From a virus: a DNA stretch of 21,291 nt. The translations under genes were made by a program, and so were the position numbers. Location of the stretch: positions 1 to 21,291 of IMG/VR virus record IMGVR_UViG_3300046718_000558; one strand, written 5' to 3'. The notes beneath the pieces are model-generated. The model saw nothing but the letters and a program-made list of their open reading frames with translations, did not search any database and was not told where the DNA came from. Of the stretch, positions 2,507-10,068 are shown piece by piece; the first letter of the stretch is position 1; each line of letters begins with the position of its first letter.

Positions 2507-3595
2507 GTGACGACAAGGGTCCAGTCACTGAGGAGTTCAACCACGGGCTCCATGCCTGCCGCAGGCACCAGATCAGCGGGTGAACTCTGGACGAACTTCC
2601 CTGATCTCCAGATTGGCGTGATTGACGCCTCGAAAAACCCCCAGAAACTGGTTGGCGTGCGCTTCTTTTCGACCACGGCCAACTACGGGGTGGGTGATAT
2701 CGTCGTCCAGGCCGGAAAACTTTACTCTGCTACACAAGTGGTGACTGCGGGAGCGTTCAACGGCACCCAATGGTCGCAAATCGCAGCTTTGACCGATATT
2801 CCGGCCCAATATGTGCTGCCGACCGCCTCCACTAGTGTTTTGGGCGGCGTCAAGATTGACGGCACCACCATTTCGATTGCTGGTGGCGCGATCTCGGTGA
2901 CGGCACCCTATGTGCCCTATGTCCTGCCAACAGCCTCAACCACTGTGCTCGGCGGTGTCAAGGTTGACGGCACCACGGTTTCGATTGCCAGTGGCGTGAT
3001 CTCGGCAGCAGCCAAGATCGCCACCCAGGATACGGCTCCTGCCAGTCCGACAGACAACTCCCTGTGGTGGGAGAGCGACACCGGCAATCTCTATCTGCGC
3101 TACAACGATGGCAATTCCAGCCAGTGGGTGCAGGTGAACGCCTTGCCCAATGGTGCGGGCTACATGCCGTTGCAGGGTGTCACCGATGGCAGCAATGCCC
3201 CGGCAGGGCAGATCGGGGAGGTGATCTCCAGCAATGTCACCACGGGCGTGCCACTGACATCGAATGTTACTGCCAATGTCACGTCAGTTACGTTAACGCC
3301 GGGGGACTGGGATATCTCGGGTGAGGTCTGGTTTAGTGTAGGAACAGGCGCACCAACCAATATGCAGGCGTCTTTGAACACAGTGTCTGGAACCCTTGCA
3401 ACAGTGAGCAATATAGGAACCACAACTGCGAAATGGCTTGCTGCAGTGCTAGCATCGACTATGCCAACGCTGGAGTTGCGAACTGCTAGAGCCAGTCTGA
3501 CGGTGAACACGACCTACTATCTGTTGGCGTATCTGATCTTTCCGTCTGGAACTTGCACCGCCACCGGCAACATCATCGCGCGGAGGGCACGCTGA
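2507..3595 (+). CDS. Tail fibre / receptor-binding protein with 36-residue repeats and C-terminal head domain
   Basis: A 362-residue fibre protein with a GTG start and GGGAGG 10 nt upstream. Residues 60-95 have a carbohydrate-binding-like 'YGVGDIVVQAGKLYSA...W' module. Two tandem 36-residue repeats follow (YVLPTASTSVLGGVKIDGTT... and YVLPTASTTVLGGVKVDGTT...), a stalk repeat widespread in phage fibres. Next comes an 'APASPTDNSLWWESDTGNLYLRYNDG' segment. From residue 225 to the end is a domain beginning GVTDGSNAPAGQIGEVIS, containing GDWDISGEVWF and ending GNIIARRAR; it is common at fibre C-termini of phages and prophages and is presumed to be the head. This domain is repeated in the next gene. 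The stop overlaps the next start (TGATG). Confidence 0.85.
   Translation: MTTRVQSLRSSTTGSMPAAGTRSAGELWTNFPDLQIGVIDASKNPQKLVGVRFFSTTANYGVGDIVVQAGKLYSATQVVTAGAFNGTQWSQIAALTDIPAQYVLPTASTSVLGGVKIDGTTISIAGGAISVTAPYVPYVLPTASTTVLGGVKVDGTTVSIASGVISAAAKIATQDTAPASPTDNSLWWESDTGNLYLRYNDGNSSQWVQVNALPNGAGYMPLQGVTDGSNAPAGQIGEVISSNVTTGVPLTSNVTANVTSVTLTPGDWDISGEVWFSVGTGAPTNMQASLNTVSGTLATVSNIGTTTAKWLAAVLASTMPTLELRTARASLTVNTTYYLLAYLIFPSGTCTATGNIIARRAR
2810..3025 (+). repeat. 108-bp tandem repeat, two copies
   Basis: Two copies with a period of exactly 108 bp (2810 and 2918) encode the 36-residue fibre repeat. They share long stretches such as GTCAAG-TTGACGGCACCAC but have diverged at many third positions, so the duplication is old or both copies were inherited together. 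Confidence 0.75.
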
Positions 3596-3598
3596 TGG
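3179..3598 (+). repeat. Fibre head cassette, copy 1
   Basis: This is the first copy of a 420-bp unit whose second copy is at 3736-4155 (offset 557 bp, no net insertion or deletion). The left ends (3179-3225 against 3736-3782) match at 45 of 47 bases by my count, and the right ends (3565-3598 against 4122-4155) at 31 of 34. The central part is strongly diverged. The right flank includes the start codon of the next gene. Confidence 0.75.
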
Positions 3599-4152
3599 CT
3601 TTCGATTTCCCCAGCACCCCCTCCGTTGGCGACCTGTTTCAGGACAGCAGCTCCGGTGCGGTCTATCGCTGGAACGGCTATGCCTGGGTCGGCGGCGTCG
3701 CCCAGCTTCCGGGGGTCTACCAGCCTTTGCTGGGCGTGACCGATGGCAGCAATGCCCCGGCAGGGCAGATCGGTGAGGTGATTTCGGTTGCTGTTGCTTC
3801 CCCAGGAGTAACCTTATCGAACAGCGTGGTGGCCAATGTGGGTTCAATCGCGCTGACCGCAGGTGATTGGGATGTCGGCGGAGAAGTCTGGGTCTCCACC
3901 GGAACTGGCGCGGCGACCGCACTGCAAAGCGCGATTTCCAACGTTTCAGCCACGCTGCCGCTCCAAGGGATCGGGACTGCGCGGGTTATAGCGAACTGGC
4001 CGGTTACGGCATCGACGATAAATGCCTTCGCCTTGCGGCCCGCTCGCGTCAGTCTAGCGGCAGGGGCAACTTATTATTTGGTGGCGATAGCGAATTTCCC
4101 GTCGGGAACGACAACAGCCTACGGCAACATCATCGCCCGGAGGGTGCGCTGA
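3595..4152 (+). CDS. Short tail fibre / receptor-binding protein, paralogue of the preceding head domain
   Basis: A 185-residue protein. I use the ATG at 3595, inside the stop of the previous gene (TGATG), rather than an upstream in-frame ATG at 3553 that would overlap the conserved end of the previous fibre. The first 47 residues contain a 'STPSVGDLFQDSSSGAVYRWNGYAWV' module typical of fibre stalks. Residues 48-185 are a second copy of the head domain (GVTDGSNAPAGQIGEVIS ... GDWDVGGEVWV ... ATYYLVA ... GNIIARRVR), identical at both ends to that of the preceding protein but different in the middle. It has no long stalk, so it may mount on the longer fibre, form a minor spike, or act as an alternative tip. 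Confidence 0.8.
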   Translation: MAFDFPSTPSVGDLFQDSSSGAVYRWNGYAWVGGVAQLPGVYQPLLGVTDGSNAPAGQIGEVISVAVASPGVTLSNSVVANVGSIALTAGDWDVGGEVWVSTGTGAATALQSAISNVSATLPLQGIGTARVIANWPVTASTINAFALRPARVSLAAGATYYLVAIANFPSGTTTAYGNIIARRVR

Positions 4153-4155
4153 TGG
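3736..4155 (+). repeat. Fibre head cassette, copy 2
   Basis: Second copy of the unit described at 3179-3598: conserved flanks, divergent core, identical length. Its right flank includes the start codon of the membrane protein gene at 4152. Confidence 0.75.
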
Positions 4156-5185: not shown

Positions 5186-5653
5186 ATGGCTCTTCCAATG
5201 GGTGCCGGACCTCCTCCCGGTGGTCTTCCGCCTGGCGGTCCCCCGATGGGGGGCGGTGGTCCTCCTTCCAGTGGCGGCCTCGGCGGTCTTTTAGCGGCGC
5301 TGGCCCACAGACACGGCCAGGTTGCCAGCCTGTCCATGCACCCCGGCCCCGGTGGAGCGCCCGGCGGGATGCCGGGAGGGGGTCCGCCAGCAATGCCACC
5401 GGTCCTCAACGCTCCCCCGGCGGGCGGGCCTCCAGGTGGCGGCCTTGGCGGACCTCCACCTGGTCTCGGCGGACCTCCGGGCCTGGGCGGACCCCCGCCG
5501 CCAATGCCACCGCCCCGGCCCCCGATGGGAGGTTCACCAGCGCCGGGCCTGGGCCGACCGCCACCAATGGCTGCGAAAGGGCCGCCAAAAGGGCCTGGAA
5601 AAGCGCCGCCCAAAGGTATCAAGATCAAGGCCGCGCCCGTGCGCATAAGCTGA
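5186..5653 (+). CDS. Pro/Gly-rich low-complexity protein, unknown
   Basis: A 155-residue protein made almost entirely of Pro, Gly, Ala and Met blocks (GGPPMGGGGPP, GGPPGLGGPPPPMPPPRPP). One short ordinary segment interrupts them (about residues 30-52, GGLGGLLAALAHRHGQVASLSMH), which could be an amphipathic helix. The C-terminus is basic (KGPPKGPGKAPPKGIKIKAAPVRIS). It has a strong AAGGAG ribosome site with a 7-nt spacer, so it is likely expressed despite the open antisense frame that such composition creates. It lies between the lysis and packaging genes. A similar Pro/Gly-rich stretch ends the portal protein. It may be a disordered virion or assembly protein; no function can be assigned. Confidence 0.6.
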   Translation: MALPMGAGPPPGGLPPGGPPMGGGGPPSSGGLGGLLAALAHRHGQVASLSMHPGPGGAPGGMPGGGPPAMPPVLNAPPAGGPPGGGLGGPPPGLGGPPGLGGPPPPMPPPRPPMGGSPAPGLGRPPPMAAKGPPKGPGKAPPKGIKIKAAPVRIS

Positions 5654-6146: not shown

Positions 6147-7711
6147 CTGACCAAAGCGAACTCAGGCGGCTGTTGCAGCGCAAAAAAGCCATTCTTCAGG
6201 CCCGCACCGACCTGATTTCGTTTGCTCAGTTCATGATGCCGGTGCCGGACACGCCCGATGATGTCTCTGTGTCTCTTTACAGGCCCAGCAAACACCACAG
6301 AGTGCTCGGCGCGGCCCTCGAAGAGATTGAAAGCGGTAATTTCAAGCGCCTTCAGGTGTCAATGCCGCCCAGACACGGCAAGACCAAGCTGTCGTCCCAT
6401 CTTTTCCCAGCCTGGTTTGTCGGAAAACACCCCGAAAAGTCCATTATAGTGGCCACTTATGGCGAAAAGTTCGCCTGGGACCATGGCCGGGCCGTGCGCG
6501 ACCTCATCGAGAGCCCGCTCTATCGCCAGGTGTTTCCGAACACCCGTCTCAAGACAGGTTCGGCCTCCCAGGAGCGCCTGGAGACCGAACAGGGTGGAAT
6601 TCTGTTCTTTCTGGGCCGTGGCTCGGGTGCAACCGGGCGTGGGGCCGATGTCATCCTGCTCGATGACCCGGTAAAAGACCGCAAGGAAGCCGATAGTCCC
6701 ACCATCCGCAACGATTTATGGCAATGGTACACCCAGGTCTTGCAGACACGCTTGATGACCAAAGCCGGAGCCATTGTGATCATCGCCACACGTTGGGGCG
6801 AAGACGACCTGATCGGACGGCTCACTGACCCCCAGAATTCCTACTACTCAGTCGGCGAAGCCCAGAAATGGCGGGTGATCGACATGCCCGCCCTCGCCCG
6901 TGACAAGGACGTACTGGGCCGGGCCGTTGGTGAACCACTCTGGCCGGAGCGGTTCGACAGAGACTATCTGGACACCATACGTGAAACCGACGTACGGGGT
7001 TTCCAGGCCCTCTATCAGGGTCGCCCGACCCCTGAAGAGGGATCTTTCTTCAAGGCGGTGTCTTTGCGCACCTACTCCAAGATGACGGTGATGCCAGCCC
7101 GCGAGAAACTACGCTTCTACGCCGCGAGCGACCACGCGGTGTCTCTGGAGCAGGGCCGCGACAAGACCTGTTTGATGGTGGTGGGTGTCGACGAGCACGA
7201 TCAGATCTGGGTGCAGCCTGACCTGTTTTGGGAGCAGGCAGACACCAACACCGTGGTCGAGCGCATGGTCAATCTGATGGAGAAATATAACCCTTTGTTC
7301 TGGTGGGCGGGCAAAGACCATATTTCCAAGTCCATCGGGCCATTCCTGCGCAAAAGGATGCTCGAAAGACGGGTGTTCTGCACCATCGATGAGATCACCG
7401 CCGTCTCTGACAAACAGACCCGTGCCCAGTCTATGCAGGCACGCATGGCGATGATGAAGGTGGTTTTCCCCGGTTTTGTACGCTGGTGGGCCGAAGCCCA
7501 TGACCAGCTCCTGAAGTTTCCGCAGGGCGCGCATGACGATTTCGTCGACACCCTCTCGCTGTTCGGCATTGGCCTCTACAAGCAGCGCGCCCATCGCCTC
7601 CCGGCCAAGGAAAAGAAGCAGCCCGCCATCCTGACCTATGGCTGGGTGATCGAAAACGCCAAGAAAGAGCGCAAGCGTGAGCGCGAAAACCTGACGACAG
7701 GGGGCTGGTAA
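6143..7711 (+). CDS. terL: Terminase large subunit (packaging ATPase and nuclease)
   Basis: A 522-residue motor protein that cuts concatemeric DNA and pumps it into the prohead through the portal. The ATPase domain shows a Walker A PPRHGKT at residues 75-81, an adenine-region motif around IIVATYGEKF (101-110), Walker B VILLDD (170-175) and the coupling motif IIATRWGEDDL (213-223). The RNase H-like nuclease domain has Asp330 in YAASDHAV, a strand-pair GRDKTCLMVVGVDEHDQIWV (338-357) and the terminal acidic motif GAHDDFVDT (462-470). All key motifs are intact and the length is normal for the family. The start overlaps the previous stop (ATGA) and the stop overlaps the portal start (TAATG), so the packaging genes are coupled. 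Confidence 0.95.
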   Translation: MTDQSELRRLLQRKKAILQARTDLISFAQFMMPVPDTPDDVSVSLYRPSKHHRVLGAALEEIESGNFKRLQVSMPPRHGKTKLSSHLFPAWFVGKHPEKSIIVATYGEKFAWDHGRAVRDLIESPLYRQVFPNTRLKTGSASQERLETEQGGILFFLGRGSGATGRGADVILLDDPVKDRKEADSPTIRNDLWQWYTQVLQTRLMTKAGAIVIIATRWGEDDLIGRLTDPQNSYYSVGEAQKWRVIDMPALARDKDVLGRAVGEPLWPERFDRDYLDTIRETDVRGFQALYQGRPTPEEGSFFKAVSLRTYSKMTVMPAREKLRFYAASDHAVSLEQGRDKTCLMVVGVDEHDQIWVQPDLFWEQADTNTVVERMVNLMEKYNPLFWWAGKDHISKSIGPFLRKRMLERRVFCTIDEITAVSDKQTRAQSMQARMAMMKVVFPGFVRWWAEAHDQLLKFPQGAHDDFVDTLSLFGIGLYKQRAHRLPAKEKKQPAILTYGWVIENAKKERKRERENLTTGGW

Positions 7712-10014
7712 TGGCGCTCGGCGACAACACAGACACCGCGAAGCAGTCAAGCCTGCTTGACCAGCTCCTGGCCGACCAACCCCAGGAGCCCATTGACAAG
7801 CTGATGGCGCAGTCCAAGCAAGACGAAGACCTGATGGAGCGTGATCCGCCCGATCCGCCCGAACCGCGCAAGCAACTGGTCTCGCAATGGTGCGACAAGA
7901 TCAAGCGTGGCAAGAAATACTGGACCCCGGTCTATGACCGCATGAAGGCCGATCAGGACTTCGCGGCGGGTTATCAGTGGTCGAAAGAGGAAAAAGACAA
8001 TCGATACACTGCGAATTTGACCCTGCGCATCATCAGTCAGCGGGTGGCGTTCTTCTACGCCAAGAACCCCAAATTCATCACCCATCGGCGCGAGCGGATC
8101 ATGAACACCGTCTGGGACAATTCCCAGGCCACGTTGGTCTCGCTCCAGCAATCCGCCGGGCAGGTGGCACAACAGGTGTCCATGGGCCAGATCGATCCGG
8201 CCATGGCGCAGCAGGCCCAGCAGACGGTGATGCCCGTGCTTCAGGACGCCGCCCGGGTCAAGGCCGAGGAAGAACAGCTCAACAAGATCGGCAAGACGCT
8301 CGAACTTCTGTTCCGTGCCAACATCGACGCCACGCCGCAGGATTTCAAGCAGATGATGAAGATGACGGTGCGGCGTGCCAGCACTGTCGGTGTCGGCTAC
8401 GTCAAGCTTGGCTTCGAGCGGGTGATGCAGAAAAAACCCGAGATCGAGCAGCGCATCGCCGATATCTCCAACCGCCTCTCGACCCTGGAGCGCATCAGCG
8501 CTGACATTCACGACGACGAGACCGACGAGAATGGCCCCGAGGTCGAACAGCTCAGGGTGTTGCTGAACGATCTGAAGTCGCAGACACAGGTGGTGGTTCG
8601 GGAGGGTCTGACCTTTGATTACCCAGTGTCGACCGCGATCATTCCCGACCCCAAATGCATGAATTTAAGGGAGTTCCTCGGCGCTGACTGGGTTTGCCAG
8701 GAATACATCCTCTCGCCCAACGACGTGAAGGAGATCTACAACATCGATGTCGGCAAGTCATACAATGCCTACAAGGGCGTCGACGACGGCGTGACTGTCA
8801 CTTCGCGTGGTGGTTTCGTGGTGCTGCAGGATAAATCCCAGAAGACAGACACGCGCGAAGGCAATGACGGACGCTCTTGTTGCGTGTGGGAAGCCTGGAA
8901 CCGCAAGGACGGCCTGGTCTACACCCTTTGTGACGGCTATCCGGACTTCCTGCGCGAGCCCGCTTCGCCCGAGGTCTACACCGACCGTTTCTGGCCGTGG
9001 TTCCCCCTCACTCTCAACGAGGTCGACCACGAGACCATGATCTTCCCACCAAGCGATGTGAAACTCATTCGCGACATGCAGATGGACTACAACCGGGGCC
9101 GCCAGGGCATTCGTGAACACCGCCGGGCCGCCCGGCCCAAGACCGTGGTCGCGGCGGGCATGGTCGACCCGGAAGACCTCGAAAAGCTGTCGAACCACCC
9201 TGACAACGCCATCATCGAACTGAACGGTCTGCAACCAGGCCAGAAGGTGGACGACCTCTTGCAAGGTTTCAGGGGACCTCCGATTGATCCCAACCTCTAC
9301 GAGGTCGAGCAGACCTATGTCGACATGATGCGGGTGTCTGGACTTCAGGACGCCAACATGGGCGGCGCTGGCGGTGGCGGTCCAAGCGCGACCCAGTCCA
9401 ATATCGCTGAAGCCTCTCGGGCGACGGCGATGGGGGCCAATATCGACGATATCGATGATTTATTGACTGGCATCGCTCGTGCTGGCGCGCAGATCCTGCT
9501 CCAGGAGGTGTCTGTTGACACCGTCAAGCGCATCGTCGGTGAAGGCGCGGTCTGGCCCGACATGACCCGCCAGCAGATCGCTGACGAACTCTGGCTACAG
9601 ATCGAAGCAGGCAGCACGGGTCGCCCCAACCAGGCCCAGGAAATCGCCAACGCCGAACGCATTTTCCCGATGCTGATGCAGCTCCCTGGCATCAAACCGG
9701 AGTGGCTGGCCAAGGAGCTGATCAAGCGCCTCGACGACAAGCTGGACATCACCACGGCGTTCCAGAGCATGTTGCCGTCGATTATCGCGATGAACGGCAT
9801 GGCCTCTCGCCAGGGCATTGGCCCGCAGGCACCTGGTGGCCCGATGGATTTCCCCGGCGCAGGTCCCGCCCAGGGTCCGGCAGGGGGTTCGAATGCGCCT
9901 CAGGGCGCACCTCCCGGCGCGCAGCGTCCCCCAGACCAGACCGGGCAACCGCCACCTCCCGGCCCGATGCCCGGTCCTGTCGCGCCGCCGCCGGGGGGAC
10001 ATCCCATCGCCTAA
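7711..10014 (+). CDS. Portal protein
   Basis: A 767-residue protein of P22-like portal size, directly after the large terminase (TAATG overlap). The dodecameric portal is the DNA channel at one capsid vertex. Supporting features are the N-terminal helical segment with WTPVYDRMKADQDFAAGYQW (71-90) and TANLTLRIISQRVAFFYAKNP (100-120), a Gln/Ala-rich coiled stretch (about 140-195), and the central region FLGADWVCQEYILSP, WEAWNRKDGLVYTLCDGYPDFL, WPWFPLTLNEVDH and MQMDYNRGRQGIREHRR, a layout typical of phage portals. A GGAGGGGPSATQSNIAEASRA segment leads into C-terminal helices. The last 70 residues are Pro/Gly/Gln-rich and probably disordered. An internal perfect hairpin (9507-9522) contains one copy of the recurring heptamer. 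Confidence 0.9.
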   Translation: MALGDNTDTAKQSSLLDQLLADQPQEPIDKLMAQSKQDEDLMERDPPDPPEPRKQLVSQWCDKIKRGKKYWTPVYDRMKADQDFAAGYQWSKEEKDNRYTANLTLRIISQRVAFFYAKNPKFITHRRERIMNTVWDNSQATLVSLQQSAGQVAQQVSMGQIDPAMAQQAQQTVMPVLQDAARVKAEEEQLNKIGKTLELLFRANIDATPQDFKQMMKMTVRRASTVGVGYVKLGFERVMQKKPEIEQRIADISNRLSTLERISADIHDDETDENGPEVEQLRVLLNDLKSQTQVVVREGLTFDYPVSTAIIPDPKCMNLREFLGADWVCQEYILSPNDVKEIYNIDVGKSYNAYKGVDDGVTVTSRGGFVVLQDKSQKTDTREGNDGRSCCVWEAWNRKDGLVYTLCDGYPDFLREPASPEVYTDRFWPWFPLTLNEVDHETMIFPPSDVKLIRDMQMDYNRGRQGIREHRRAARPKTVVAAGMVDPEDLEKLSNHPDNAIIELNGLQPGQKVDDLLQGFRGPPIDPNLYEVEQTYVDMMRVSGLQDANMGGAGGGGPSATQSNIAEASRATAMGANIDDIDDLLTGIARAGAQILLQEVSVDTVKRIVGEGAVWPDMTRQQIADELWLQIEAGSTGRPNQAQEIANAERIFPMLMQLPGIKPEWLAKELIKRLDDKLDITTAFQSMLPSIIAMNGMASRQGIGPQAPGGPMDFPGAGPAQGPAGGSNAPQGAPPGAQRPPDQTGQPPPPGPMPGPVAPPPGGHPIA

Positions 10015-10024
10015 GTTATTGTAT

Positions 10025-10068
10025 CGTGTCTGTTTTCACAGTACACATCATAGACACCGGCAGACACG
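10025..10068. repeat. 8-bp inverted repeat made of the recurring heptamer
   Basis: CGTGTCTG at 10025-10032 and CAGACACG at 10061-10068 are exact reverse complements separated by 28 nt. They fill most of the gap between portal and scaffold genes. As DNA this could be a two-site operator or binding dyad; as RNA the loop is long, which makes a terminator unlikely. Confidence 0.6.

Follow-up and report, generated by a model that had tools for sequence, protein, structure and literature searches.

The closest described relatives of the tail-fibre locus analysed here are the phrog_11393 fibres of Drulisvirus such as KpV74 and of Pectobacterium phage PhiM1 (gp47, PDB 8VBX), which have the same C-terminal fibre domain by sequence. 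PhiM1 has six trimeric fibres of gp47 (PMC11440229). KpV74 and PhiM1 each carry one such fibre gene, whereas our window, the whole stretch of 21,291 nucleotides of IMG/VR virus record IMGVR_UViG_3300046718_000558, has two of them one after the other, the second bearing a short adaptor. A further resemblance is one of fold: TNF/C1q-like heads (the A-1(L) fibre, a domain of the Pam3 fibre gp24, and BC2L-C) have a jelly roll in common with the model of the window head, but sequence identity is only about 10%, and no glycine-rich tip of the Pam3 type was seen in the window head.

In fibre ends of the P2, Mu, P1, and T4 types, a variable receptor-binding end is swapped between conserved flanks, and the window locus appears similar. 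Unlike in those fibres, its left flank is a short island within the start of the head itself, and no invertase is found among the window proteins scanned. The invertible segments of Mu and P1 hold their alternative ends in opposite orientation; both copies in the window lie on the + strand. Coupled overlapping genes with a TGATG or ATGA overlap and a ribosome-binding site inside the upstream gene are also described (PMC6728339, PMC10666635), as is the arrangement here. The window differs from these in that the site falls in an invariant Arg-Arg motif of a domain that appears to be exchangeable.

Two serial fibre genes end in heads of one family

The original prediction, made from the sequence alone, was of two consecutive genes ending in fibre-head domains of the same length, 138 residues. 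We confirmed both the gene arrangement and the length (Table 1), and profile matches, C-terminal position, and a fold model identify the domain as a C-terminal fibre head. Genes A and B both match the phrog_11393 profile as far as its last position. Relatives in the family number at least 521 among viral contigs, and another 25 come from genome records of bacteria and archaea; no plasmid homologue was found. Its members include Drulisvirus and Pectobacterium phage fibres, with PhiM1 gp47 homologous to the head at an E value of 1.5e-24. In A and B, and in 111 of 117 family copies, the domain runs up to the stop codon; in the family it is preceded by anything between 9 and more than 600 residues.

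Table 1. Features of the serial fibre locus, in window positions
Feature	Positions	Strand	Description and basis
Gene A, long tail-fibre gene, 362 aa	2507-3595	+	N-terminal anchor (common to related phages), repeat shaft, C-terminal head; matches to phrog_15343, phrog_11393 (E 1e-14), and phrog_9729
Gene B, short tail-fibre gene, 185 aa	3595-4152	+	Adaptor plus head of gene A's family; phrog_11393 (E 1.3e-20), model pLDDT 88.8; start overlaps gene A stop as TGATG
Gene A head domain	3179-3595	+	138 aa plus stop, 417 bp
Gene B head domain	3736-4152	+	138 aa plus stop, 417 bp; offset 557 from head A
Head A left border	3157-3228	+	72 bp, 88% to 3714-3785; exact 35-nt run from 3182
Head B left border	3714-3785	+	Exact run from 3739
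Head A right border	3565-3598	+	Arg-Arg codons CGG-AGG give GGAGG, 8 nt before gene B start
Head B right border	4122-4155	+	GGAGG and TGATG likewise embedded, serving the gene at 4152
Gene B N-terminal adaptor	3595-3700	+	MAFDFPSTPSVGD...YRWNGYAWVGG; recurs at starts of serial fibre genes in other phages

An AlphaFold2 model of gene B, built as a monomer, is a jelly roll resembling TNF/C1q heads. It matches the short tail fibre of cyanophage A-1(L) (PDB 8KE9) with a Z score of 9.6, the TNF-like lectin BC2L-C with 9.5, and many other TNF/C1q-like heads with about 8-11. Variation across the family is greatest in the stretch that matches gene B residues 123-146; the two ends and a GDWD motif are conserved. 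The resemblance of the modelled jelly roll to TNF/C1q heads makes it likely that the heads bind receptors. They may also form trimers.

The phage and its serial fibre locus

A second record of the phage, IMGVR_UViG_3300046836_000693, matches the window without a single difference over 7,802 bp and continues for 11 kb on the upstream side. Genes for an integrase-family protein and an HTH repressor-like protein lie in this upstream part, which suggests that the phage is probably temperate; it is also probably podovirus-like. The same upstream part (L168) contains an AAA ATPase (CbbQ_C/AAA_5) gene adjoining a VWA-domain CobT_C-like gene (6505-10029) and a SNF2-type helicase (1207-2553). In the window, a small, very Gly/Pro-rich protein with MGGGGPP-type repeats is encoded between the lysis genes and the terminase (5186-5653), and a similar gene is present in a related phage, L006.

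L006, with a TerL 76% identical, keeps the N-terminal part of gene A (residues 1-157, 47%) and has a different C-terminal part. Its gene A homologue (L006 6001-7821) retains the anchor and continues into a long unrelated part, the end of which by eye resembles an S74-type chaperone domain. The head domain is absent from all records of the related phages L006-L009, and related phages with the same anchor or adaptor carry other fibre ends. The adaptor pattern of gene B, MxDFPxSPxxG...YxWDGxxW, is found at the start of serial fibre genes across many phages, and frequently begins two or three consecutive genes whose ends differ; such arrays were seen at L003 6001-8703, L097 1442-3417, and L127 3426-4814. 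Homogenisation of fibre adaptors within genomes was considered and set aside, with a slight rise only (0.52 versus 0.43, p 0.03, longest run 15 nt).

In two other phages (L139 3001-4291 and L152 2333-3438), a long head gene precedes a short one that has the adaptor of gene B and the same head family, the short gene resembling an internally shortened second copy. Both are pairs of long and short head-bearing genes, yet neither has a long identical patch.

Within the shaft of gene A, an 88-nt direct repeat (2810-2897 and 2918-3005, 82%) encodes two YVLPTAST..LGGVKxDGTT..I units that are head-fibre-like, with a weak PF11133 match below its cut-off. Between the shaft repeat and the head lies an LWWESDTGNLY...QWVQV module (3055-3148), whose DNA resembles that of fibre genes in many otherwise unrelated phages (79-100% over 27-91 bp). 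This module recurs in 23 loci with conservation mainly at the protein level, and was set aside as a candidate on that ground. It could represent a further exchange point just upstream of head A.

Heads A and B align along their whole length

The two heads had been described as conserved at both ends around a strongly diverged middle. The counts of matches at the ends are correct, as detailed below; the strongly diverged middle is not, and arose from an ungapped reading. Without gaps, the heads are 47% identical overall and 13-33% identical across much of the middle, because the comparison slipped out of register. Once gaps are allowed, the heads align over their full length, with 61% identity in both DNA and protein. 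The 6 gap columns of this alignment cancel out, so the equal length of the heads is a coincidence of compensating indels. Homology of the cores is plain, with a local score of 243 against 39 +/- 7 for shuffled sequences (maximum 77).

Where the residues of A and B agree, the codons are identical at 14 of 18 positions on the left, 17 of 47 in the core, and 6 of 7 on the right (ends versus core, Fisher p 0.0005), and synonymous sites in the core are saturated. Equal synonymous divergence at ends and core had been named as a result that would speak against the original prediction; the ends are in fact closer. The phage's own codon use leads to an expectation of 16.6 of 47 in the core, 2.9 of 7 on the right (P 0.016), and 7.3 of 18 on the left (P 0.001), the last from a test made once the pattern had been seen, in which a chance of about 0.001 is not negligible. 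Among 332 family pairs with similar protein identity, the mean fractions of identical codons are 0.35 on the left, 0.33 in the core, and 0.28 on the right.

The left border is exceptionally alike in DNA

The left 47 bp match at 45 positions, as first counted, and include the exact run of 35 nt. This run is the longest in some 5,990 family pairs below 70% identity. DNA identity of the A/B left border (0.91) is the maximum among the 332 pairs of similar identity, for which the mean is 0.61 (sd 0.10).

Several other causes of this likeness were considered. RNA structure was not detected at the left border (z 0.15). Family-wide codon constraint is weak there, consisting only of mild GGC and AGC biases. 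A border element in DNA common to many phages was also set aside: a 17-nt word of the left border occurs in five other viral contigs, never in this domain, and it is absent from the other head homologues. Mapped on a poorly resolved tree of the cores, left-border type requires 22 changes against 27.7 with shuffled labels, which ties border type to core weakly at most. The A/B left border is most likely a patch of DNA homology left by recombination, and we infer that it arose by exchange or conversion at the start of the head. Since synonymous sites in the core are saturated, no duplication of a single age would leave an exact patch of 35 nt.

The right border contains a probable ribosome-binding site for the next gene

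On the right, 31 of 34 bp match, again as first counted, and the stretch does include the next start codon, within TGATG. Its role as a recombination arm fares less well, as its conservation is better explained by a Shine-Dalgarno sequence together with the start of the next gene, which overlaps the stop codon. Across non-redundant homologues, AGG is present in the Arg-Arg pair in 27 of 35 with a coupled downstream start and in 9 of 57 without one (odds ratio 18, p 7e-9). AGG accounts for 0.41 of the Arg-Arg codons among the coupled homologues, compared with 0.06 of the other arginine codons of the same genes. A codon-bias scan of 91 columns ranked the two arginine columns first and fourth and showed little at the left-border columns.

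Because AGG tracks coupled starts and the arginine columns stand at the top of the scan, the likeness of the A and B right borders appears to be mostly that of a ribosome-binding site for the next gene, set inside invariant Arg-Arg codons. Translational coupling is known for overlapping genes and is consistent with this reading (PMC6728339, PMC10666635). In a homology-flanked cassette, recombination and no other constraint keeps both ends alike; the right end is mainly explained by such another constraint, the embedded ribosome site.

Exchange at the borders in relatives

The original prediction also called for exchange in relatives, and we observed exchange at the borders in one group only, L055 against L061, L132, and L143. 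L055 and L061 are two contigs of Cupriavidus basilensis KF708. They have an exact run of 32 nt, the second longest among family pairs, at the same left border as A and B, lying in a 53-bp island (51 matches) with diverged flanks on both sides. Their cores have 45% protein identity, and on the right, identity returns 27 nt before the domain end and continues for 1444 bp at 95%. L132 and L143 are of the L061 type. Judged from these alignments, a core swap whose breakpoints lie at the borders separates L055 from L061. Drulisvirus and Corkvirinae isolates were also considered as border swaps and rejected, as identity returns near the end of the domain but the whole distal fibre differs, and only a right-hand breakpoint is present. 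That breakpoint may be just the gene end.

The cores of the window heads appear to differ in ancestry. Gene A's core groups with those of L005 and L081 (support 96/88), apart from the core of B, although A and B as sister cores are not formally rejected (AU p 0.10). This looks like common ancestry of the A core with cores of other phages, the B core belonging to a different lineage. L081, whose core is among the nearest to that of A, has a left border very different from A's, which points to separate histories of borders and cores. In the only other record of the phage, A and B show neither a swap nor a 557-bp deletion. In outline, the original prediction is correct at the level of the family, where one group of relatives supports exchange at the borders; for A and B themselves, exchange is unproven.

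Discussion

We conclude that A and B are probably ordinary modular fibre heads in a serial locus, with a trace of recombination at the left border and mainly a ribosome-binding site at the right. On this model, each gene would join an anchor or adaptor to a TNF-like, probably receptor-binding head, and the heads would be modules exchangeable between phages. Recombination at the start of the head, by exchange or conversion, would leave the patch of DNA on the left. At the other end, the head's Arg-Arg codons would supply the Shine-Dalgarno sequence for the overlapping gene downstream, so an incoming head may bring a working ribosome-binding site for the gene that follows. Swaps of heads would be expected to alter host range.

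The original prediction went further, to a recombination cassette with both borders maintained as homology arms and heads moving between the two copies as well as to and from other phages. The likeness of the ends at synonymous sites and the border-to-border core swap in Cupriavidus fit such a cassette, and phage recombinases, through relaxed homologous recombination, accept short, diverged homology (PMC3945230). We nevertheless regard it as rather unlikely: the embedded ribosome site explains the likeness on the right, the left border is under little family-wide DNA constraint and contains a 17-nt word seen in none of the other homologues, and the one other record of the phage has no A/B exchange. 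A second alternative is that a tandem duplication simply diverged, without recombination, and that protein constraint and codon use alone keep the ends alike. This would agree with the conservation of both protein ends across the family and with the pairs of long and short head genes in L139 and L152. It is decidedly improbable in view of a left synonymous identity above codon-use expectation (P 0.001 in the post hoc test), a left-border DNA identity above every comparable family pair, an exact 35-nt patch alongside saturated synonymous sites in the core, and a core of A nearer to those of other phages.

Phage fibre ends are classic targets of diversity-generating retroelements and invertible segments. 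We consider programmed variation by either extremely unlikely here. Heads A and B lie on the same strand, their cores differ by indels as well as substitutions, and no reverse transcriptase or serine invertase was present among the window proteins scanned, which represent part of the ORFs; the upstream integrase-family gene matches Phage_integrase (PF00589). Returning to modular heads with a recombination trace on the left and a ribosome site on the right, a stronger version is possible, and we offer it only tentatively: heads of this family might be plug-in modules, the left end a recurrent homology handle by which heads are swapped inside one phage and from phage to phage, and the right end the next gene's ribosome-binding site, so that swaps change specificity but spare downstream expression.

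These results do not show a dedicated cassette device; the pair is well explained as modular host-range genes, a known kind of system. In fibre genes, conserved ends around a variable centre may reflect either recombination or a ribosome-binding site embedded in the coding sequence, and the two are easy to mistake for one another. Before such ends are named recombination arms, it is simple to check whether arginine AGG codons accompany a coupled downstream start. If the plug-in reading of handle and ribosome site is true, it would mark the points at which heads can pass from phage to phage while the operon is left intact.
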